From an uncultured Olsenella sp. (lineage in GTDB: Bacteria > Actinomycetota > Coriobacteriia > Coriobacteriales > Atopobiaceae): 64,000 bases of DNA. Positions within the stretch are counted from its first letter, which is position 1; every line of letters starts with the position of its first letter. The position numbers were made by a program, and so were the translations under genes. The notes beneath the pieces are model-generated. The model was not told the origin of the DNA. It did no database searches and worked only from the letters and a program-made list of their open reading frames with translations. The stretch spans positions 1-64,000 of the forward strand of contig OMVT01000007.1 in assembly GCA_900314535.1 (NCBI GenBank). The letters run 5' to 3'. Below, piece after piece: positions 2,981-14,639 of the stretch.

Positions 2981-3695
2981 CACATCCGTCTCCCGCTACG
3001 AGATATCCTCTGTCGACAAGGAGGAGGTGCTCCGCTACCTTGGCTATGCCGGGCAGGAGTATAGCCCATCCTTGGATGGCAGGATCGATGCGGCCATCGG
3101 GCATGCCCTCGCTATCTCCGAACCGAAGGGGGTCATGCGCCCCTTCGAGGTCGAGCGCATAGACGAAGGCGAGAATCCCTGCGTCCATCTCAAGGGTACG
3201 GCACTCAAGCTTCCCGGCCACGATATCGCAGAGCATCTTGCCGGGGCCCAGGCCACAGCCGTCTTCGCGGTGACCTTGGGCATGTCGACTGAGCGGGAGC
3301 TCAGACGCCTCTCGCTTACCGACCATCTCGAGCAGATCCTCTTCGATGCTGCCTCAGTCGCACTCGTCGAGCGTGCCGCCGACGCTGCAGAGGCAGAAGC
3401 CGTGAAGTGGGCAGCAGGCCAGGGACTCTTCTGCACCTGGCGCTACTCTCCTGGCTACGGAGACCTGCCGCTTGCCGTGCAGCCGACACTCCTGTCTGCC
3501 CTCAATGCCCAGAGGCTCTTGGGCATCACGCTCTCGCCGAGCCTCCTCATGACACCGACGAAGAGCGTCACGGCCATTGTCGGCTGTTTCACGGAACCGA
3601 AGAGAAGCACGCACATGAGCTGCGCCAAGTGCGTCTGCCACGATTTCTGCACATTCCGTGTCCAGGGAAGGACCTGCCATGACAGAAGGAAATAG
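2952..3695 (+). CDS. Stand-alone B12-dependent methionine synthase reactivation domain protein
   Basis: The 247-aa product resembles the C-terminal AdoMet-binding reactivation domain of MetH, with the YSPGYGDLPL segment that corresponds to the domain's SAM-binding YSPGYGD/RxSPGY motif. The adjacent MetH lacks this domain, so this gene probably provides reductive reactivation of cob(II)alamin in trans. The C-terminus holds a cluster with CAKCVCHDFC and one more Cys, suggesting a metal or Fe-S site. The start is uncertain: in this frame only TTG codons (2952 or 2970) lie near the metF stop, giving an overlap of 29 or 11 bp. Its end overlaps the metH start by 17 bp, consistent with translational coupling. 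Confidence 0.85.
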   Translation: MWGAATLPASTSVSRYEISSVDKEEVLRYLGYAGQEYSPSLDGRIDAAIGHALAISEPKGVMRPFEVERIDEGENPCVHLKGTALKLPGHDIAEHLAGAQATAVFAVTLGMSTERELRRLSLTDHLEQILFDAASVALVERAADAAEAEAVKWAAGQGLFCTWRYSPGYGDLPLAVQPTLLSALNAQRLLGITLSPSLLMTPTKSVTAIVGCFTEPKRSTHMSCAKCVCHDFCTFRVQGRTCHDRRK

Positions 3696-6198
3696 GACCC
3701 TGTCCTCTGTCGCTATCCGCGACCCGAAGGTGCCGGCATCTGCCCCCTTCGGGCCTGGTGCCAAGCGCACGCTCAGAATCAAGGACGAGCATCTCGCCCA
3801 CGTGCTCGAAGGGCAGGAGTTCCTCCTCTTCGATGGCGCCATGGGAACGCAGCTCCAGGAACGTGGCATGAAGGCAGGAGAGCTGCCAGAGCTCCTCTGC
3901 CTTGAAGATCCGGACAATGTCACAGCCATCCATGCCGCTTACGTCGAGGCCGGTGCCGAGGCCGTGACGACGAACACGTTCGGCGCGAATGCCCTGAAGC
4001 TTGCCGGCAAGGCGACCGTGCGCCAGATCTTCGAGGCAGCCGTCTCCTGCGTGCGTGCAGCAGGAGCGCGCTATGTCGCGGCGGATATCGGCCCCACGGG
4101 AGCCCTCCTCGAGCCCATGGGGACCATGAAGTTCGAAGAGGCCTATGGGCTCTTTGCCGAAGAGGCAATCGCGGCAGAAGAGGCAGGAGCCGACCTCTTC
4201 GTGATCGAGACGATGGCAGACCTCGCCGAGGCGAAGGCTGCCCTCCTTGCGGTCAAGGAGCATACGCAGCTGCCGGCATTCGTGACAATGACATTCGGAG
4301 AGGACGGGCGTACCTTCCTCGGCACGACGCCTGAAGTCGCTGCCGTGACGCTCTCCTCGCTCGGTGCCGATGCTGTCGGCATCAACTGCTCGCTTGGCCC
4401 TGAAGACGTGGAGCCGCTTGTGCTCCGCATGCTCCCCTACCTTTCCTGCCCCTGCATGGTGCAGGCCAATGCGGGACTCCCTGAGGTGCATGACGGTGTG
4501 ACGACCTATGGAATCGACGCCGAGGAATTCGTCTCAGCCATGAAGCCCATGGTCGAGGCAGGCGTCTCCATTGTCGGCGGCTGCTGCGGCACGGCACCCG
4601 ACTATATCGCGCGCGAGCGTGCCCTCATCGATGGGATCGGCACGCCCCGTCCCCATGCGCTCTCCCCCGACTTCACGGTCGCAAGCTCCCAGGAGCTCCT
4701 CTCGCTTGCTTCGGGACATATTGCCGTCATCGGCGAGCGCATCAACCCGACGGGCAAGAAGCGCATGAAGGAGGCATTGCGCTCCGGGGACTTCGACTAC
4801 ATCCTGACGCTCGCTATCGAGCAGGAACGCGCCGGCGCCCAGGTGCTCGACGTGAATGTGGGTCTGCCTGAGATAGACGAGACGAAGCTCCTCAAGCGTG
4901 CCGTCACGGACATCTCAGGCGTCACATCGCTGCCGCTCCAGGTCGACTCGGCAACGGCTTCCGCGGTCGAGGCAGCTGTCAGGAGCTATCCGGGAAAGCC
5001 GCTCATCAACTCCACGAATGGCCGCGAAGACATGATGGAGGAGATGATTCCGCTTGCCCACCACTATGGGTGCGCGCTCATCTGCCTGACGCTCGACGAG
5101 GCAGGCATCCCGGCCACGGCAGAAGGACGCCTCGCCGTCGCGCGCAAGATCTATGACCGTGCCCGCAAGGAAGGCATGCCGGCACAGGACCTTGTCTTCG
5201 ACTGCCTTGCTATGGCAGCAAGCACGGATCAGAAGGCACCTGGCGAGATCTTGAAGAGCATCCGCCTCGTGAAGGAGGCGATGCCGGGTGTCCGCACGGT
5301 CCTCGGCGTCTCGAACATCAGCTTCGGCCTTCCCTTCCGCCCCTTGATCAATGCGACCTTCCTCGCTGCTGCCTTTGCTGCCGGACTCGACCTCGCTATC
5401 ATCAACCCGGGCCAGCAGCGCATGCACGATGTCGTGAGCGCCTGGCGCGTGCTTTCAGGCGAAGACGAGGCAGCCCGTGCCTATGTCGAGGAGAATGCCG
5501 GCCGTACCGAGGCAAAGGGCCCGGCCGCTGCTGTCGGCACCCCTGCCGCCTCGAGCGCATCGTCTGCTGCCGCAACGCCTGAAGAGGCTGCCCTTCAGGG
5601 TGTGCTCGATGGCAGGAAGGCAGCCGTCAAGGCGGCGACAGAGAAGCTCCTCGAAGGCCATGATGCGATGTATGCGATCAACCAGGTGCTGATCCCTGCC
5701 CTTGACGAGGTCGGCGTGCGCTTCGAGAAGGGCACGTTCTTCCTGCCTCAGCTCATGGCATCAGCTGAGGCAGCAAAGGCAGGATTCGATGCAATCAAGG
5801 CATCGCAGCCGAAGGACGCCGTGCCGACGAAGGGCAAGATCGCGCTCTGCACCGTCAAGGGCGACATCCACGATATCGGGAAGAACATCGTGAAGATGCT
5901 CCTCGAGAACTATGGCTACGAGGTCTTGGACGTCGGCCGCGATGTGGATCCGCAGGCGTTCTGCGATGTCGTGGTCGAGCACCATGTGAAGCTCGCAGGG
6001 CTCAGCGCACTCATGACAACAACGGTGCCGGCCATGGGAGAGACGATCGAGCTCCTGCGCAAGCAGGCACCCTGGTGCAAGGTCGTCGTCGGAGGTGCCG
6101 TCCTGAATCCCGAGTACGCGAAGATGGTCGGCGCCGACTACTACGCGAAGGACGCCGCCGAGACCGCAAAGATCGCAGCCGAGGTCCTAGGGCAATAG
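3679..6198 (+). CDS. metH: Cobalamin-dependent methionine synthase lacking the reactivation domain
   Basis: This 839-aa enzyme transfers a methyl group from 5-methyl-THF to homocysteine through bound cobalamin. Domains in order: homocysteine-binding barrel (about 40-325) with zinc ligands Cys237 (GINCSL) and Cys302-Cys303 (GGCCGT); pterin-binding barrel (about 355-600) beginning GERINPTGKKRMKEAL; an Ala/Ser-rich linker; the cobalamin cap helices (about 630-710); and the Rossmann B12 domain with GDIHDIGKN, where His731 is the expected lower cobalt ligand. E. coli MetH has about 1,227 residues; the missing C-terminal module is encoded just upstream. The ATG at 3679 follows GAAGGA; a GTG at 3658 is the alternative. 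Confidence 0.95.
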   Translation: MTEGNRTLSSVAIRDPKVPASAPFGPGAKRTLRIKDEHLAHVLEGQEFLLFDGAMGTQLQERGMKAGELPELLCLEDPDNVTAIHAAYVEAGAEAVTTNTFGANALKLAGKATVRQIFEAAVSCVRAAGARYVAADIGPTGALLEPMGTMKFEEAYGLFAEEAIAAEEAGADLFVIETMADLAEAKAALLAVKEHTQLPAFVTMTFGEDGRTFLGTTPEVAAVTLSSLGADAVGINCSLGPEDVEPLVLRMLPYLSCPCMVQANAGLPEVHDGVTTYGIDAEEFVSAMKPMVEAGVSIVGGCCGTAPDYIARERALIDGIGTPRPHALSPDFTVASSQELLSLASGHIAVIGERINPTGKKRMKEALRSGDFDYILTLAIEQERAGAQVLDVNVGLPEIDETKLLKRAVTDISGVTSLPLQVDSATASAVEAAVRSYPGKPLINSTNGREDMMEEMIPLAHHYGCALICLTLDEAGIPATAEGRLAVARKIYDRARKEGMPAQDLVFDCLAMAASTDQKAPGEILKSIRLVKEAMPGVRTVLGVSNISFGLPFRPLINATFLAAAFAAGLDLAIINPGQQRMHDVVSAWRVLSGEDEAARAYVEENAGRTEAKGPAAAVGTPAASSASSAAATPEEAALQGVLDGRKAAVKAATEKLLEGHDAMYAINQVLIPALDEVGVRFEKGTFFLPQLMASAEAAKAGFDAIKASQPKDAVPTKGKIALCTVKGDIHDIGKNIVKMLLENYGYEVLDVGRDVDPQAFCDVVVEHHVKLAGLSALMTTTVPAMGETIELLRKQAPWCKVVVGGAVLNPEYAKMVGADYYAKDAAETAKIAAEVLGQ

Positions 6199-7272: not shown

Positions 7273-7956
7273 TCAATCATAGCGCGCCAGAGCACGTCTG
7301 AGCGATCTGCCCCAGGGAATCCAGACAAGCAGCAGGAATCCAGCGGTAGAAAGCCCATGCACGAGGTCGAGCGGCAGTCCTGCGAGAAAGGCGGCAATGA
7401 CAGTCTCGGGCACGAGCGGACGCACATAGCCCAGGACATACCAGCCATTGAGGATTGCCCCATAGAGAAGGCCTGAGAGCACGCCTGAGACGGCGAGCTG
7501 CCACTTGCTATGCAAGAGCCCATGACGTGCCAGAACGCCTCCGAGATAGCCTACAAGCCCCCAGGCATACATCTGGAGCGGTGTCCAGGCGCCCTGCCCG
7601 AAAAAGAAGTTCGAGAGGAGCGCTGCGAAGGCGCCGACGGCAAAGCCGCTCTCCGGCCCCAGAAGCGCCCCTGAAAGTATTGCGATGGCAGAGACCGGCT
7701 TCACATCGGGCACAGCCGCAAAGAGGATCCTGCCCGCTGCCGCCAGAGCAGAAAGGCAGGCTACAGGCATCATCTGCCGGAGCGCCGGCTTTCCTGCCTC
7801 GATGCGGGCGAACATGAAGAGGATGGCAACGGCTGCCGCAAGGAGCGCAAGCCCGCCCGATATGGCAGAGCCCGCCCAGGCAGACCAGAGCATGAGGAGA
7901 GGGACAAGGGCCAGGACCAGAGGCTCCGAGGCCTTGAGGATGCGCTGCCACATCAT
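7273..7956 (-). CDS. ECF transporter S component, probably for cobalamin
   Basis: The 227-aa protein is almost entirely hydrophobic with about six helices. It contains GRILFAAVPDVKP, followed by LSGALLGPESGFAVGA and SNFFFGQG, a pattern seen in ECF S components related to CbrT and similar substrate-binding subunits. It is the last gene of an operon (riboswitch, DUF4430, DUF4430, EcfT, EcfA) and overlaps the EcfA gene by 4 bp (ATGA). Substrate is inferred to be cobalamin only because a cobalamin riboswitch heads the operon and DUF4430 relates to transcobalamin; a cobalt or precursor (cobinamide) substrate is possible. Confidence 0.8.
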   Translation of the reverse strand: MMWQRILKASEPLVLALVPLLMLWSAWAGSAISGGLALLAAAVAILFMFARIEAGKPALRQMMPVACLSALAAAGRILFAAVPDVKPVSAIAILSGALLGPESGFAVGAFAALLSNFFFGQGAWTPLQMYAWGLVGYLGGVLARHGLLHSKWQLAVSGVLSGLLYGAILNGWYVLGYVRPLVPETVIAAFLAGLPLDLVHGLSTAGFLLLVWIPWGRSLRRALARYD

Positions 7957-9386
7957 CTGCGCCCCCAGAGCCAGCTTCTGGAAAGGAAGCTCTCTGCATC
8001 TGTGCTCACTGCCGCTCCCCCATCGAAGATGAGCGTGACCGTATTGGCTAGCGCTCGCACAAGCTCGGTATCGTGCGTCGCGCAGACGATGGTCGTGCCT
8101 GCCTCCTGCACCTTCTGGAGCGCCGCAGCCAGCCTTCTCTTCGAGCTCCGGTCAAGTCCCGTCGTCGGCTCATCCAGAAGCAGGATATCCGGCTTCGCAA
8201 GCAGCAGCTTCGCAATCGCCAGGAGCTCTTCCTGCCCGCCCGAGACGTCGTAGGGGTGCCGTGCGAGGAATGCCTCGTCCTGAGGAAGGCCCAGGGCCTC
8301 GAGCACCTCCAGAGCCTCTTTCCTGCCATAGCCAACAGAAGGTCCCCATTCCAGAAGCTCCTCTGAGATGGACGGCTTCTCGAAGAGCGCGCGCGGGTTC
8401 TGCGGCAGGAACGCCTGCATCTTCGCATGGGCGTTCCTCGCCTTTCCATGCTGCACCGAAGCGATGCCTGCAAGTACAGCAAGCGCCGTCGACTTGCCCG
8501 ATCCATTGCCGCCCAGAAGCACGCTGAAGCTTCCCTCAGGCACCGCAAACGAGAGGTCGCGAAGCACCCAGGGGGCACGCGCGGCATAGCGCTGGTAGAC
8601 ACGCTCAAGCTCTGCTGCCACACCAGCTGCAGCAGGATGCACGGCCGCCATGCCAGAAAGCGCTGAGGGTGCCTCTGCAAGGGCTCTGGCCTCTGCCTCT
8701 GCAAGCATGCCTCCTGCGGAAAGCGTCAAGGCCCTGTCTGCATAGGGGACGAGCATTCCGGGGTCGTGCGTCGCGACGATGACGGTGACACCGAGCTCCT
8801 GGTTCATGCGCCAGAGCAGCCCCAGGAAGGTCTTTGCGGCAAGCGGATCGAGCATGGAGGTCGGCTCGTCCAGGAGGAGAAGACGTGGCCTCATGACCAT
8901 GAGCGAGGCCAAGGCAAGAATCTGCTTCTGGCCGCCCGAAAGCTCGGAGGTGCGCTTCCGGAACCAGGAGTCGATACCGAAGAAATAGCAGGTCTCGGCT
9001 ATGCGCTGGCGCATCTCTTCCTGCGTCGAGCCCAGATTCTCGAGGCCGAAGGCAAGCTCGTGCCAGACCGTATCGCAGACGATCTGGCTCTCGGGGTCCT
9101 GGAACACGTATCCGATGCCAGAGGCAGACTCGGCCGGAGAGAGTGCATCAATCGGACGTCCGAAGAAGGAGATAGTGCCAGAAAACCTGCCGTGAGGTGC
9201 CAGCTCTGGCTTCGCGAGACGCAGAAGCGTCGTCTTGCCCGAGCCATTCTGACCGGAGAGGATCGTGAAGGAGCCTTCCGGCACGGAGAATGTGATGTCG
9301 GCAAGGACATCTGGCCCCTGCAGCTCCCCTTCCGGCACTGCATAGGCAAAGCTCACGTGGCTGAACTCCAGAGCGCTTTCTGTCAT
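7953..9386 (-). CDS. ECF transporter energy-coupling ATPase, two ABC domains fused
   Basis: This 477-aa protein carries two complete ABC ATPase domains in one chain, so it acts as EcfA1 plus EcfA2. Domain 1 (about 1-235) has Walker A SGQNGSGKTT and signature LSGGQKQ with Walker B LLLLDEPT. Domain 2 (about 260-475) has Walker A LGGNGSGKST, signature VSGGQEE and LLLDEPTTG. Most ECF modules encode the two ATPases separately. It overlaps EcfT upstream and the S component downstream by 4 bp each, consistent with coupled translation and fixed stoichiometry. It powers uptake by the S component in the membrane. Confidence 0.93.
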   Translation of the reverse strand: MTESALEFSHVSFAYAVPEGELQGPDVLADITFSVPEGSFTILSGQNGSGKTTLLRLAKPELAPHGRFSGTISFFGRPIDALSPAESASGIGYVFQDPESQIVCDTVWHELAFGLENLGSTQEEMRQRIAETCYFFGIDSWFRKRTSELSGGQKQILALASLMVMRPRLLLLDEPTSMLDPLAAKTFLGLLWRMNQELGVTVIVATHDPGMLVPYADRALTLSAGGMLAEAEARALAEAPSALSGMAAVHPAAAGVAAELERVYQRYAARAPWVLRDLSFAVPEGSFSVLLGGNGSGKSTALAVLAGIASVQHGKARNAHAKMQAFLPQNPRALFEKPSISEELLEWGPSVGYGRKEALEVLEALGLPQDEAFLARHPYDVSGGQEELLAIAKLLLAKPDILLLDEPTTGLDRSSKRRLAAALQKVQEAGTTIVCATHDTELVRALANTVTLIFDGGAAVSTDAESFLSRSWLWGRR

Positions 9387-10297
9387 CTCTCCTCCTTCCG
9401 CCAGAGCATCCGCTCATGCACGAGAGATCCTATGGGCAGGGCTGCAAGCATCATATAGGGCACATAGCCCCACCAGAAGACAAGCGTAGGCATTGTGGGA
9501 TAGAAGTGCCATTGTCCGACCGCCATGCCCGCAGGCACAGCCGAGGCAAGCCCGAGCGCGGCAAGGCCGATAAGCGCCACGGCATCCCGTGCATGGAATT
9601 CGTGCGTCTGGAAGGCTGACCGCTTCTGCCCCCGTGCCCACCCGCGGGCGCGCATCGCATCGGCACGTCCGATCGAGTCCTCGAGCATCCAGGAGAGCAG
9701 GATCCCTCCCGCCAGGATATCGGTCCGCTCCTTGGCAGACGAGGGCTGCCTTGCGGCAGTCGTCGCAAGGTGGACATCCTTCACGGCACGGTATCTCCTC
9801 ATGCTCTGGGGCACGAGCTGGGCAGCGATAGCCAAAGTCGTCGCCGCAGCAGGCGCCTTCGTGCCCATCATCTGCATGATCTCATCCTCGTTCACCATGG
9901 AGCTGAGGTTCTCGCACCAGAGCATGACGGAAACAAAGACTGCGCCCATCATCGCCCCGTAGACGAGGCTCTCGAGCTTAATCGTGAAGGGGCCGAGCAC
10001 GCAAAGCGTCGTTGCCCCATACCCGGCAAAGAGAGCATTCACGCAGGCCATGAGAAGGACAAGGCCCAGCTGCCAGCGAAGCTTTGCAAGCGTACGCGTC
10101 CAGCCACGGAGAATTCCTGAGAGCACGAATGCTGAGACGAGACTCAGGCACACATAGACCGGCTGCAGGGCAAACATGGCAAAGAGCAGAAGGGCGGTTC
10201 CTGCGGCAAGCGCAACGGCTGGATGGAAGGAGGCGAAGGGACGGAGTGTCTCCGAGACGTCCGTCCCTCCCTCCCCGAAATCATCAGTAGGAGACAT
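9383..10297 (-). CDS. ECF transporter transmembrane coupling protein EcfT
   Basis: The 304-aa integral membrane protein has N-terminal helices (about 25-135) and a cytoplasmic coupling region. Two coupling-helix motifs are visible: MRRYRAVKDVHLATT and ADAMRARGWARGQKR; the Ala-Arg-Gly cores contact the ATPases in this family. Two more helices lie near the C-terminus. It overlaps the EcfA gene by 4 bp and the upstream DUF4430 gene by 14 bp. The start at 10297 (MSPTDD) gives the shortest plausible overlap; a longer open frame to 10363 would run deep into the upstream gene. Confidence 0.88.
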   Translation of the reverse strand: MSPTDDFGEGGTDVSETLRPFASFHPAVALAAGTALLLFAMFALQPVYVCLSLVSAFVLSGILRGWTRTLAKLRWQLGLVLLMACVNALFAGYGATTLCVLGPFTIKLESLVYGAMMGAVFVSVMLWCENLSSMVNEDEIMQMMGTKAPAAATTLAIAAQLVPQSMRRYRAVKDVHLATTAARQPSSAKERTDILAGGILLSWMLEDSIGRADAMRARGWARGQKRSAFQTHEFHARDAVALIGLAALGLASAVPAGMAVGQWHFYPTMPTLVFWWGYVPYMMLAALPIGSLVHERMLWRKEER

Positions 10298-11375
10298 AGG
10301 CCCACGCAACCGAGTCGCCTGACGAGAGGACATGGTTCGCTGCAGAATGGCTCGGCTCGACACCGTTCACGGCATACACCCAGCCGCGCCTGTCGCGCGA
10401 GCTCGCCTCGACGCCGCCAATGCCGGTGATGTAGATGCCATACTGCGTATTCTGGGTGCTGACGCCGTAGCCTGCCGCCTCGAGTGCATCGAGGACGGAC
10501 GACCCCTGGGGAACCGTGACCGTGACAGAGGTCGAACTGCCGCCACCGAGGCTTGCATCGACGGAGACCGAGACGGTGATCTGGGAAGGCTCGGCAGCTG
10601 CGCTCGGAGAAGTCGATGCACCATTGCCTGACGTGCCAGAGCCTGTCTGAGAAGAGGTACCGGTGCTGCCAGAGCTTCCCTTGCCTTCTTCGCCGCCGTT
10701 TCCCTGCGCCCCATTGCCGGACTGCCCAGATGCACTGCCTTCAGCATTTGAGCTGTCGCTGCCGCCCTGCTCGGGTACATCGGCAAGACCCAAATCCTGC
10801 GAGGCTGCATCGGGAAGCGTGCAGGAGGAAAGCGATGAGAGGAGCTCTTCTGTGCTCTGGGCATCTGTTGCAGGCGCAGCACCTGCATCGAGCGTGCCGT
10901 CAAAGACCTGGGCACCGGCCGAGGTATTGACTGACCAGGAGACCGCAAAGTCGTCTGACCCCGTCTCATCCTCGAGCCACTGTGCCAGGGCAAGCAGGCG
11001 CTTTGCGGCAAGCGGCACGGCATCTGCTGCTGCCCCATCGTCCGTAACGACGACGCTGACCTTGCCGTCCTCGAGCGTGACCGTGGCAGCAGAAGGATCG
11101 AGGCCGATACCTTCGCCCTGCCAGGAAAGGTCCTGGAGCGCTGCCTGGATGCGTGCCTCAGTAAGCGCTGGCGCATCTTCGACCGCGCTCTCTGCGCCCT
11201 CTACCGAAGAGCTAAGCCCCTGAGGCATATCGAAGGCGAGAGCAAAGAGTGCCACGCTGAATGCCACAAGGACGATGCCGCAGATGAGCGGCAGCTTCCA
11301 GCCTGGGCGGCGCCTGGTGCTCCCGCCGCCCTCAGGCTTCTGATTGTCTGTGTCGTGGACGATATATTCTGCCAC
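10284..11375 (-). CDS. Membrane-anchored DUF4430 (transcobalamin-like) protein
   Basis: The 363-aa protein has a basic N-terminus, one transmembrane helix (about 28-48), a predicted extracellular middle region, a Gly/Ser/Asn low-complexity linker (about 205-270) and a C-terminal DUF4430 domain (about 275-363) with GSSVLDALEAAGY, GWVYAVNGVEPS and GDSVAWAYV. DUF4430 is related to the C-terminal domain of transcobalamin/intrinsic factor. The type II orientation puts DUF4430 outside the cell. It starts with GTG one nucleotide after the stop of the upstream surface protein, with AGGAG inside that gene. Inferred role: binding cobalamin at the membrane and handing it to the ECF importer. Confidence 0.8.
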   Translation of the reverse strand: MAEYIVHDTDNQKPEGGGSTRRRPGWKLPLICGIVLVAFSVALFALAFDMPQGLSSSVEGAESAVEDAPALTEARIQAALQDLSWQGEGIGLDPSAATVTLEDGKVSVVVTDDGAAADAVPLAAKRLLALAQWLEDETGSDDFAVSWSVNTSAGAQVFDGTLDAGAAPATDAQSTEELLSSLSSCTLPDAASQDLGLADVPEQGGSDSSNAEGSASGQSGNGAQGNGGEEGKGSSGSTGTSSQTGSGTSGNGASTSPSAAAEPSQITVSVSVDASLGGGSSTSVTVTVPQGSSVLDALEAAGYGVSTQNTQYGIYITGIGGVEASSRDRRGWVYAVNGVEPSHSAANHVLSSGDSVAWAYVSY

Positions 11376-11376
11376 G

Positions 11377-14118
11377 CTACTTCTCCTGCTTTCTGCGCTT
11401 GAGCGCGAGAAGGATCAGGAAGAGGCCCAGGACGAGCAGAACGATCGGCACGGCAATCTTCCACGCATCGCCTGCTGCATTCGTCCCAGCCGTATCCTGG
11501 GCAGCAGCACCCAGATCTTTCGAGCTTCCGGTGGATGAGCTCGAAGAGGACGAGCTCGAAGGCTTTGAGGTATCGGTCGCAGTGCTTGCGGCCTCAGCCG
11601 GTGCGGAAGCGTCTGTGCTGCCGCTCACGCCGGTCGTCTGGACCGTGTCCGTCGCAGCGGTTCCAGCAGATGTGGACGTACGTGCAGAGCGCGTCACAGG
11701 AGCGCTGCCCTGGGAGCCGTTGCTGTCGGATGCATCCGTGCCTTCGGTGCCGCCATTGCCTGCAGGAGCGGCTCCGCCATTCTCCTGGCCTGTGCTATTC
11801 TCGTTGCCGCTGTTCCCGTTGCTGTTGTCAGGGTTCGGTGTCGGTTCAGGCTCTGGCTCGTTTTCGGTCCACTTCGCATAGAGCAACATCGTGCTGCCAC
11901 TCGGCCTCACATAGGTCGCCGAAGCATCGAATGCCGTCTCGAACTCCGGATCGAGATACCAGCCGGCAAATGTATAGGCATCGCGCGTCGGCTCCTCGAC
12001 ACTCCCCGCTGCCATGCCGGAAACTATGGTCTTCGACTCGACGCTGCTGCCGCCGTTGCTTACAAAGGAAAGCGTCCAGGTCTCCGTCTTCGCCAGGACA
12101 TTCTTGAGAGCAAAGAGATAGCCGGAATCGTTCGTATAGAAGATGAGGCCCGCCTTCGAGGCGATCGGGGATGCGGTGCAGTAGTTCTGGTAGGTAGCAT
12201 CTCCCGGCGTGAAGATTGCTTGGGCCGTGGAGAGCGCACCATCCTTGTAGCTTACGAGCGAGAGGCCGCCAGGATTGCTGTTCGTCGTCACATAGATGGA
12301 TATAGCAGTGCCGCCAGAAACCACGAGCGGCGTCGACTGCACGGCACCATTGCCGACTTCGATTGTCTGGGGCACATAGCCTGCCTCGCCGATGCAGGAA
12401 AGATCGATAGCGGAAAGGGTCCCTTCATAGGGCCAGCTCGTGCCCGTCGAGCCGCCGATGAAGGCGACGCCGTTGGAAACCACGGCTGTCGAGGTCGAAC
12501 GGTCAGCAAACTTGGCAGAGCCAGTCTCAGAGATTGTCGTTCCGGAGACATTCAGCACATGGAGCACGCCGTCTGTCGTCACGGCCAGATACTCTTCATC
12601 CGACACCTTCGTGATGCTTGCATGGCTTGCGCTGCCAAGGCTCACGGAGGAGATGACGGAGCCATCCGTGCCGTTCACGAGATAGGCAGAGCCCTTCTCG
12701 TCTGCAATCACGATGTCAGAACCATGGGAGGCGGCACCTGCCCAGTAGTATTCGTCGTTCTCCGTCGTGACCTGCCAGCTCGAACCATCGTTCAAGGAAG
12801 CAGAAACGAGATAGCCTGTCCCATTGAGCGGGTTCATCCAGTCGACGACAGAGAATGCCGCAAAGATGCGTCCTCCTGCAACCGTGAGGGACGAGAGCGT
12901 CTGCGTCGCACCAGACGCTGCGATGCGCGGCGTCTCCCAGACAAGCTTCAGCGAATCGGCAGAATCGCCGCTATAGAGCGTATAGGCCATGAGGCGGCCA
13001 TCATCGAGCGGGACGATCAGGAGCCCTTCTGCGTAGACAGGACGGCAGAAATAGCCGGACTTCGTCGAGATCTTCTTCGTAGCCAGGACCGCACCATCAG
13101 AGGAGTCGATGACCTGGAGCGTGCCGCCCGAGACCATATAGATCTTGCCGTCCACGAGCACAGGGTCGGAAGCGCCCATGCCGATCTTGACCGGATTCCA
13201 GGCAAGGGCCGTATTCGAGGCAGAGATCGGCGTATCGGCCGTGACGGTACCGCCTTCCATGCCCTGGTTGAAGCCAGCCCACTCGGCTGTGCCTTCCGTG
13301 CGCGTGGCTCCTGCATCCGGCTTCTCGAGGCTCGGATCCGAGACGGTCTTCGCGCTGTCGAGCGCAGTACCGGAGCCAGAGTAGTACCAGACGACCTCCA
13401 TGCCTTCCGTGAGCGTGACCTCGGACATGCCGGACTCGGAGGCGGCACCATTCACGAAGAGCTGCCAGTACTTGCCGGTCGTGCTGTCGTAGCCATAGGC
13501 CTTCCCATCGAAGGGCGAGGTGATCGTGTTGAGGTAGGCACCCCGAGACGATGCCAGGATATCGGCCGCGAGCGTGCCCTTGAAGGCATCCTCGGTGAGG
13601 TCTGCTGCGGTCTTGCCGGACTCCACCTTCACCGTCTTCTGGGCGAGCCAGTCGCAGTCATTGCCCTCGGCATCCGGACCTATGACACGGATCTTGACGG
13701 AGATCTCCGTGGCATCTGTCGCTGCAGCGGCTGTCGTGCCAGCTGCAGCTGATGCTGTGGCTTCGGTGCTTGCAGAGGCGGACTTGCCCTTCTGGCCTGC
13801 TGCAGAAGTATCAGAGTTCTTTGCGCTTTCGCTCGAAGAAGCTGCAGAGCTGCTGCTCTCGGATGCAGCATCGGCGCTCTTCTGGGCGCTCTCTTCCGTG
13901 CTGCCCTCAGCGGCTTCTGTCTTCTTCTGGGAGTCCGCAGATGCAGCAGCGTTCTTGGCGGAACCGCTCTCGGCGGCAGCCGCCTCCTGCGTGGACGCCG
14001 TCTCGAGCGTGCCTTCTGCCAGCGCCACCTGCGGCACCTGGCACCAGGCAAGCGAGAGGCTGAGCACGAATGCCAGCATGCGCTTTGCGGTCGCTAGCTT
14101 TTCTGGCTGATTCTTCAT
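11377..14118 (-). CDS. Large surface protein: DUF4430, PQQ-like propeller, InlB-type repeat, membrane anchor
   Basis: The 913-aa product starts with a signal peptide (about 1-34, ending QVALAEG). A Ser/Ala/Glu/Thr-rich stretch of about 100 residues follows, then a DUF4430-type domain (about 140-260; YWQLFVNGAASESG, GMEVVWYYSG). Next is a PQQ-like beta-propeller region (about 290-690) with repeated blades such as DPVLVDGKIYMVSGG, one InlB B-type repeat (about 700-765; VSNGGSSVESKTIVSG, YTFAGWYLDPEFE), a long Ser/Gly/Asn/Thr linker and a C-terminal transmembrane helix with KRRKQEK. No LPXTG sorting motif is visible. It is the first gene behind the cobalamin riboswitch, so B12 capture at the cell surface is inferred. 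The start at 14118 has an AGGAAAGGAAGG site. Confidence 0.82.
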   Translation of the reverse strand: MKNQPEKLATAKRMLAFVLSLSLAWCQVPQVALAEGTLETASTQEAAAAESGSAKNAAASADSQKKTEAAEGSTEESAQKSADAASESSSSAASSSESAKNSDTSAAGQKGKSASASTEATASAAAGTTAAAATDATEISVKIRVIGPDAEGNDCDWLAQKTVKVESGKTAADLTEDAFKGTLAADILASSRGAYLNTITSPFDGKAYGYDSTTGKYWQLFVNGAASESGMSEVTLTEGMEVVWYYSGSGTALDSAKTVSDPSLEKPDAGATRTEGTAEWAGFNQGMEGGTVTADTPISASNTALAWNPVKIGMGASDPVLVDGKIYMVSGGTLQVIDSSDGAVLATKKISTKSGYFCRPVYAEGLLIVPLDDGRLMAYTLYSGDSADSLKLVWETPRIAASGATQTLSSLTVAGGRIFAAFSVVDWMNPLNGTGYLVSASLNDGSSWQVTTENDEYYWAGAASHGSDIVIADEKGSAYLVNGTDGSVISSVSLGSASHASITKVSDEEYLAVTTDGVLHVLNVSGTTISETGSAKFADRSTSTAVVSNGVAFIGGSTGTSWPYEGTLSAIDLSCIGEAGYVPQTIEVGNGAVQSTPLVVSGGTAISIYVTTNSNPGGLSLVSYKDGALSTAQAIFTPGDATYQNYCTASPIASKAGLIFYTNDSGYLFALKNVLAKTETWTLSFVSNGGSSVESKTIVSGMAAGSVEEPTRDAYTFAGWYLDPEFETAFDASATYVRPSGSTMLLYAKWTENEPEPEPTPNPDNSNGNSGNENSTGQENGGAAPAGNGGTEGTDASDSNGSQGSAPVTRSARTSTSAGTAATDTVQTTGVSGSTDASAPAEAASTATDTSKPSSSSSSSSSTGSSKDLGAAAQDTAGTNAAGDAWKIAVPIVLLVLGLFLILLALKRRKQEK

Positions 14119-14237
14119 CGAGCCCTTCCTTTCCTCCCGGAAAAGCGGGCTGCCAGACGCCGAGAGGGCGGCAGGCCACGCCTGCTGCCCCATCTGTTCC
14201 GGCCAGCCTCCCCCTTTGCCCAGGACGCTTCGGACCT

Positions 14238-14412
14238 TAGGATGGAGGGCAGGTCTCCTGGCTTGGGGGATGGCAGAAGCCTTCCTGGACCCCTTCTCAG
14301 GCTCAAGGCCCAATGGGCGTGCGTCCAGGTGTTCCCCGATACAGTAGTGGCGGCTGTCCCGGATTCCGACCGGGTTCCCTTTTGATCGCTCCAGGGGAGC
14401 GAACCTCTCCAT
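14238..14412 (-). promoter_or_regulatory. Cobalamin riboswitch (AdoCbl/MeCbl aptamer)
   Basis: On the minus strand the leader contains, in order, GATCAAAAGGGAACCCGGT, ATCCGGGACAG, CCGCCACTACTGTA and, at 14263-14248, the B12 box AGCCAGGAGACCTGCC. These are the conserved core elements of the cobalamin riboswitch in the right order and spacing. It lies about 120 nt upstream of the start codon of the large DUF4430 surface protein. A GC-rich hairpin region between the aptamer and the ribosome site could be the expression platform. Binding of cobalamin should turn the transport operon off. Confidence 0.95.
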
Positions 14413-14639
14413 CCGACAGTGTCTCTATGTTGTTCGGCAGCATCTTGCTGCCTTCTGACTTCAGTCTAGCAAGCATCTGGCTGAATGGCAGCGCAAAACG
14501 CATGGAAGCGCTCGGAGCTTTTCGTCCTTTTTCTCCTCTCCCCTGTTTCCTGGCACCGTCCACACACAAGGGGAGCTCCGTACACAAGCCAAGCTGCTAG
14601 GCTCTCTCTTGAAGGTCACGCCGTCCAAGGAGGCACCTC

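Follow-up and report, generated by a model that had tools for sequence, protein, structure and literature searches.

The acquisition of vitamin B12 by Gram-positive gut bacteria is still termed an open problem (PMC6593275; PMC8941943), and the closest described outline of the system treated here is a prediction from 2007. Burroughs, Balaji, Iyer and Aravind (PMC1796856) described fusions of transcobalamin-type SLBB domains with a beta-propeller or an alpha/alpha toroid, accompanied by a second, paralogous SLBB protein; these surface proteins sit with CbiO/CbiQ in bacteria mostly without B12 synthesis, B12 scavenging was proposed as their function, and tethering was proposed for such accessory domains. 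We analysed a five-gene operon in a 64,000-nucleotide stretch of DNA from an uncultured Olsenella sp. (contig OMVT01000007.1, assembly GCA_900314535.1; the whole stretch is called the window below), in which two surface proteins carrying the DUF4430 domain are encoded with an energy-coupling factor (ECF) transporter behind a cobalamin riboswitch. We consider it highly probable that this is a B12-repressed operon for the import of complete cobamides, with capture by the surface DUF4430 proteins and import by a CbrT-type ECF transporter. A literature search returned no experiment on these proteins, and none of the DUF4430 papers found concerned bacterial B12 uptake.

The locus shares with the 2007 prediction its surface SLBB protein, the paired second SLBB protein, the propeller or toroid fusions, the CbiO/CbiQ neighbours, hosts that mostly do not synthesise B12 and the proposed scavenging role. 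The first-pass annotation of the window had regarded the combination of propeller and DUF4430 as undescribed, which is wrong, as PMC1796856 reports the propeller fusion. That paper mentions no riboswitch, and its passages on these proteins name no S component, whereas here both are identified, the latter through its link to CbrT, a near one-to-one coupling is counted across a bacterial class, and propeller and toroid are found exchanged within one genus; these are the new elements, the general outline of the system having already been predicted.

Three characterised systems offer further comparison. The ECF-CbrT transporter of Lactobacillus delbrueckii (6FNP), for which cobalamin and cobinamide transport was demonstrated (PMC5997447), has an S component homologous to that of the window and similar EcfT and ATPase subunits; in the window, by contrast, the fused ATPases belong to an ECF module dedicated to this system, the S component is longer by two N-terminal helices, and two surface DUF4430 proteins and a riboswitch are present as well. 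In human transcobalamin-1 and intrinsic factor, the counterpart of DUF4430 is the beta domain, and some relatives in Coriobacteriia add a toroid, a fold class to which the alpha domain belongs; the window protein, by contrast, has a propeller, is membrane-anchored and would supply an importer of the ABC type. BtuG of Bacteroides (PMC6143338) is likewise a surface propeller within a B12 transport locus, but it is seven-bladed, restricted to Bacteroidetes and works with BtuB, in contrast to the eight-bladed, BamB/YxaL-type propeller of the window.

The five genes, all on the minus strand, overlap or directly adjoin one another and form one tightly coupled operon, which runs from the riboswitch leader at 14424 to the end of the S component gene at 7273. 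From the 5′ end, the order is large surface protein, small DUF4430 protein, EcfT, fused EcfA-EcfA and S component, with the following features:

14231..14424, minus strand: cobalamin riboswitch aptamer (RF00174), the operon leader (cmscan 105.1 bits, E 2.9e-25, complete model)
14122..14150, minus strand: candidate hairpin over the Shine-Dalgarno sequence GGAAAGG of the large gene, from RNA folding; a possible translational expression platform
11377..14118, minus strand: large surface protein, 913 aa, with signal peptide, DUF4430, eight-bladed propeller, InlB-type repeat, low-complexity stalk and C-terminal membrane anchor
13372..13704, minus strand: DUF4430 (transcobalamin-like SLBB), aa 139-249 of the large protein (PF14478 1.7e-7; domain map; AlphaFold2 model)
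12106..13308, minus strand: PQQ/BamB-type eight-bladed beta-propeller, aa 271-671 of the large protein (AlphaFold2, fold matches, sequence match)
11872..12075, minus strand: Listeria-Bacteroides (InlB-type, List_Bact) repeat, aa 682-749 of the large protein (PF09479 1.3e-13)
11401..11466, minus strand: C-terminal transmembrane anchor and basic tail of the large protein, read from the sequence
10284..11375, minus strand: small type II membrane protein, 363 aa, with N-terminal transmembrane helix, juxtamembrane domain, linker and C-terminal DUF4430
10293..10505, minus strand: DUF4430 of the small protein, aa 291-361 (PF14478 5.8e-15; best PDB match human transcobalamin-1, E 0.0074)
9383..10297, minus strand: EcfT transmembrane coupling protein (family profile against solved EcfT chains)
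7953..9386, minus strand: fused EcfA-EcfA ATPase with two nucleotide-binding domains (ABC_tran in two stretches, 9.7e-49; ECF ATPase families)
7273..7956, minus strand: CbrT-family S component, extended at its N-terminus by two helices (6fnp_A match; AlphaFold2)

The leader covers RF00174 model positions 1-189 in full at 105.1 bits, above the gathering threshold of 31.5 bits, and a scan of the rest of the genome gave no second match to this family; it is a predicted cobalamin-binding control of expression. The first-pass annotation had already called the riboswitch, which the full-length match bears out, and an operon of two DUF4430 proteins, EcfT, a fused EcfA and an S component, with which gene order and domain matches agree. 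Its boundaries needed correction: the riboswitch extends past 14412, where the region had been ended, to 14424, and a start of the large gene at 14412 is wrong because that position sits within the aptamer, the actual ATG being at 14118, with a signal peptide that begins MKNQPEKLATAKRMLAFVLSLSLAWC. Cobalamin riboswitches usually work in the OFF direction, and by analogy with the family this one would do so too. A terminator search of the minus (operon) strand found no transcription terminator that might act as expression platform, and the candidate hairpin over the Shine-Dalgarno sequence is weakly supported, the z-score of the whole-region RNA fold being just -1.5.

As expected of an ECF system, the genes for EcfT, for a protein with two ATPase domains and for an S component stand side by side. 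A single-sequence Pfam scan gave no match for EcfT, whereas its family profile matches the solved EcfT chains 5d3m_D, 4huq_T and 4hzu_T at about 1e-11 (best 9e-12), and five of 15 homologues match Pfam CbiQ. The S protein matches the Pfam ECF S component family (6.4e-9) and, in the PDB, 6fnp_A (3.2e-7 from the single sequence, 7.3e-16 from the profile), the next hit being 4hzu_S at E 0.07; we take chain A of 6fnp to be CbrT, as its length fits neither EcfT nor the ATPase, which makes CbrT the closest by sequence among solved S components. The AlphaFold2 model (predicted local distance difference test, pLDDT, 93.3) has eight helices, two of them N-terminal additions to the S-component fold, and resembles 4hzu_S (Z 16.9) and also the metal S components 4m58 and 4m5b. 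Searches with this model using Foldseek and VIA-align listed RibU, FolT, HmpT and others, with 6FNP not among the structural matches, and the CbrT assignment therefore rests on sequence.

The genotype of the host agrees with import. Searched family by family, its own genome (98.5% complete) gave no match to CbiD, CobS or MetE. A MetH-type methionine synthase is encoded in the window (3658-6198, plus strand), matched over model positions 3-857 of 1182 and thus without the C-terminal reactivation domain. With MetH present and CbiD, CobS and MetE not found, the organism must import complete cobamides, and this gut or rumen actinobacterium, unable to make B12, must scavenge them unless an unusual salvage route exists. 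The first-pass proposal of a cobalamin ECF import system thereby gains support in two respects: specificity of the predicted transporter for cobalamin, from the riboswitch, the CbrT-family S component and the scavenger genotype, and participation of the DUF4430 proteins in this import, from their near-perfect co-occurrence with the S component.

This co-occurrence was counted in 199 genomes of Coriobacteriia, where DUF4430 and a CbrT-like S component were found together in 108, one without the other in 2 and 4, and neither in 85; the Fisher p of 1.5e-48 is inflated by relatedness, and the pattern covers many genera and several families. RF00174 places in genomes with DUF4430 are followed by a DUF4430 gene on the same strand within 12 kb in 33 of 44 cases, against about 0.15 expected under a rough uniform model, and 47 of 55 RF01689-like places precede DUF4430, so that with both families combined a cobalamin-clan riboswitch stands ahead of DUF4430 genes in at least 65 genomes. 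Many of the RF00174 and RF01689 leader scores fall under the curated cut-offs, and position is what supports such leaders. Whether DUF4430-propeller genes follow B12 riboswitches in other Coriobacteriia had been raised by the first-pass annotation; they are widespread there, many with a riboswitch upstream. A propeller-family scan of named genomes gave 53 loci in Coriobacteriia and Clostridia, most in the order large protein, small DUF4430 protein, EcfT, EcfAA and S, and a riboswitch often precedes them by a few hundred bases. The widespread B12 import operon is real, a B12-regulated module with homologues of animal B12 carriers in more than half of the sampled Coriobacteriia genomes, and relatives such as Eggerthella, Gordonibacter, Slackia, Adlercreutzia and Collinsella make the 2007 prediction testable. 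Should B12 binding by these proteins prove tight, bearers of the module would be competitors of the host and of Bacteroides for the vitamin.

Both DUF4430 domains of the window exceed the PF14478 cut-off of 23.8 bits, and that of the small protein can be aligned to the human transcobalamin-1 beta domain, its Y-G-I-Y standing opposite W-G-P-Y. Going by this alignment, from which the residue assignment is drawn, the corrinoid-facing hairpin has Tyr and Tyr at the positions of haptocorrin Trp359 and Tyr362, both reported as corrinoid contacts (PMC4350170). Among 25 homologues the second position is Tyr in at least 90%, and the first is mostly Tyr, Phe or Met. B12 capture by the surface DUF4430 proteins is likely. 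The juxtamembrane domain of the small protein (aa ~60-194, window 10794-11198, minus strand) is also conserved at other loci and matches no Pfam family.

The propeller of the large protein is the most interesting point of the operon. Its Pfam matches were weak, and the AlphaFold2 model of DUF4430 plus propeller (mean pLDDT 91.8; predicted template modelling score, pTM, 0.86 over both domains) gave the closest fold matches with YxaL (Z 39.8), the designed eight-bladed Cake8 (Z 36.2; 312 of 320 residues superposed at 2.0 Å) and BamB (Z ~34). By single sequence it matches the BamB structure 8orr at 3e-10, and the model confirms a PQQ/BamB-type propeller of eight blades. Kinship with BtuG was considered and is not supported, given the eight-bladed match and the profile, which gives 1.7e-16 for 8orr against 0.01-0.03 for "YncE family" entries, presumably BtuG. 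In nearly all homologues DUF4430, in one to five copies, stands directly N-terminal of the propeller, some 15 residues separating the two. A pattern scan over all 27 propellers found no conserved stretches, whereas a narrower, closer subset did yield them, with YYW, NxxPGG and YYTNDSG strongly conserved. The long N-terminal parts of very large homologues contained only Ig-like aBig_2, with no toroid or other known ligand-binding domain, and inspection of the large protein by eye showed no LPXTG motif.

At three loci (L047, L048 and L056) the same operon encodes a large protein with two DUF4430 copies and an alpha/alpha toroid where the propeller stands elsewhere, and the toroid profile matches squalene-cyclase-type toroids at 2.8e-9. 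Locus L047 (genome G070) shares its genus label with the propeller-bearing Eggerthella sinensis, and the exchange of toroid and propeller at one operon position is thus seen within a single genus. In the window's large protein the propeller occupies the place of the toroid that partners the DUF4430-type domain in transcobalamin and intrinsic factor, and by analogy this exchange suggests that the propeller may do the toroid's job. On the tentative and rather doubtful reading that goes furthest, the large protein would be a transcobalamin-like clamp in which DUF4430 and a PQQ-type propeller in place of the toroid enclose the corrinoid, with partner folds exchanged within single genera; if binding is tight, the two alternative folds would exemplify the rebuilding of a two-domain vitamin clamp.

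Taken as a B12 import operon, the locus would work as follows. Low intracellular cobalamin would permit expression through the riboswitch, and both DUF4430 proteins, membrane-anchored and facing outward, would concentrate corrinoid locally or take it from other carriers. Capture would fall to the transcobalamin-type beta-grasp domains, with the propeller beside DUF4430, in the toroid's place, as a possible second half of the clamp. The corrinoid would then pass to the CbrT-type S component, which would topple and be reset by EcfT and the fused EcfA-EcfA ATPase. We infer the binding of corrinoid by DUF4430 and propeller, the order of binding and the hand-over to the S component.

A serious rival concerns the part played by the large protein. 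The operon may encode a B12 transporter in which the propeller, and perhaps the large DUF4430 as well, is a docking scaffold or wall tether, contact with B12 being confined to the S component or the small DUF4430, a reading that could well hold although we lean somewhat against it. BamB, whose type the propeller shares, is itself a scaffold, Rv3035, crystallised with FecB, is near the propeller in fold (Z 34.8), tethering by such accessory domains was proposed in PMC1796856, and minimal operons (L057, L058, L060-L063) manage with the small DUF4430 protein and ECF genes; against this stand the nearly invariant short spacing between DUF4430 and propeller and the high pTM across both, the ability of a toroid to fill the propeller slot, and the strongly conserved propeller residues. 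That the DUF4430 proteins capture some other ligand (a corrinoid precursor, another cofactor or a carrier protein), their co-regulation with B12 import having a different cause, seems improbable to us: SLBB domains do bind varied ligands, but DUF4430 occurs nearly one to one with the CbrT-like S component and under riboswitch control in most of the class, and with CobS not found a precursor would require other salvage. Import of cobalt by a CbiMNQO-like system, the riboswitch mirroring cobalt demand for B12 synthesis, deserves hardly any credence; cobalamin riboswitches often govern cobalt ECF transporters, the EcfT relatives match CbiQ and the eight-helix S model also resembles 4m58 and 4m5b, yet the genome has no CbiD or CobS match and the S sequence fits CbrT, not CbiM or NikM.

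Several observations nevertheless weigh against capture of B12 by the surface proteins as proposed. The large protein is not in every operon, as the minimal ones show, and more distant, riboswitch-linked relatives (L040-L042, L044-L046) have propeller proteins lacking DUF4430. Collinsella has its DUF4430 genes and its ECF genes at separate places, and CbiD is present in 15 of these genomes, which keep DUF4430 nonetheless. As a profile, the match of DUF4430 to transcobalamin is weak (E 0.08), and the domain is present in Lactococcus lactis, where RF00174 has no match, so that by itself it is no proof of B12; this occurrence also speaks for another ligand.

Elsewhere in the class, leaders of Eggerthellaceae and Collinsella are weak with RF00174 and match the related RF01689 (AdoCbl-II), that of Eggerthella sinensis reaching 35.5 bits against a cut-off of 36.5. 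The variant Eggerthellaceae leaders, just under the RF01689 cut-off and ahead of the B12 operon, have the B12 box AAGTCGGAAYACC in place of AAGYCAGGAGACC, and are possibly a distinct riboswitch subgroup with another ligand preference:

L101:5562-5786 (plus strand); L075:4881-5105; L089:3505-4040 (two copies); L096, L111, L123 and L126: variant Eggerthellaceae leaders

In many genomes of Collinsella the DUF4430 genes stand behind a weak AdoCbl-II-like leader, and in Collinsella and relatives (L064, L065, L093, L110) the genes for the DUF4430-propeller protein and the small DUF4430 protein occur on their own, the CbrT-like S component being encoded elsewhere. In the window's own family, a genome without DUF4430 or a CbrT-like S component (G114, locus L039) has RF00174 upstream of a locus with CbiD and is likely a B12 maker in place of a scavenger.

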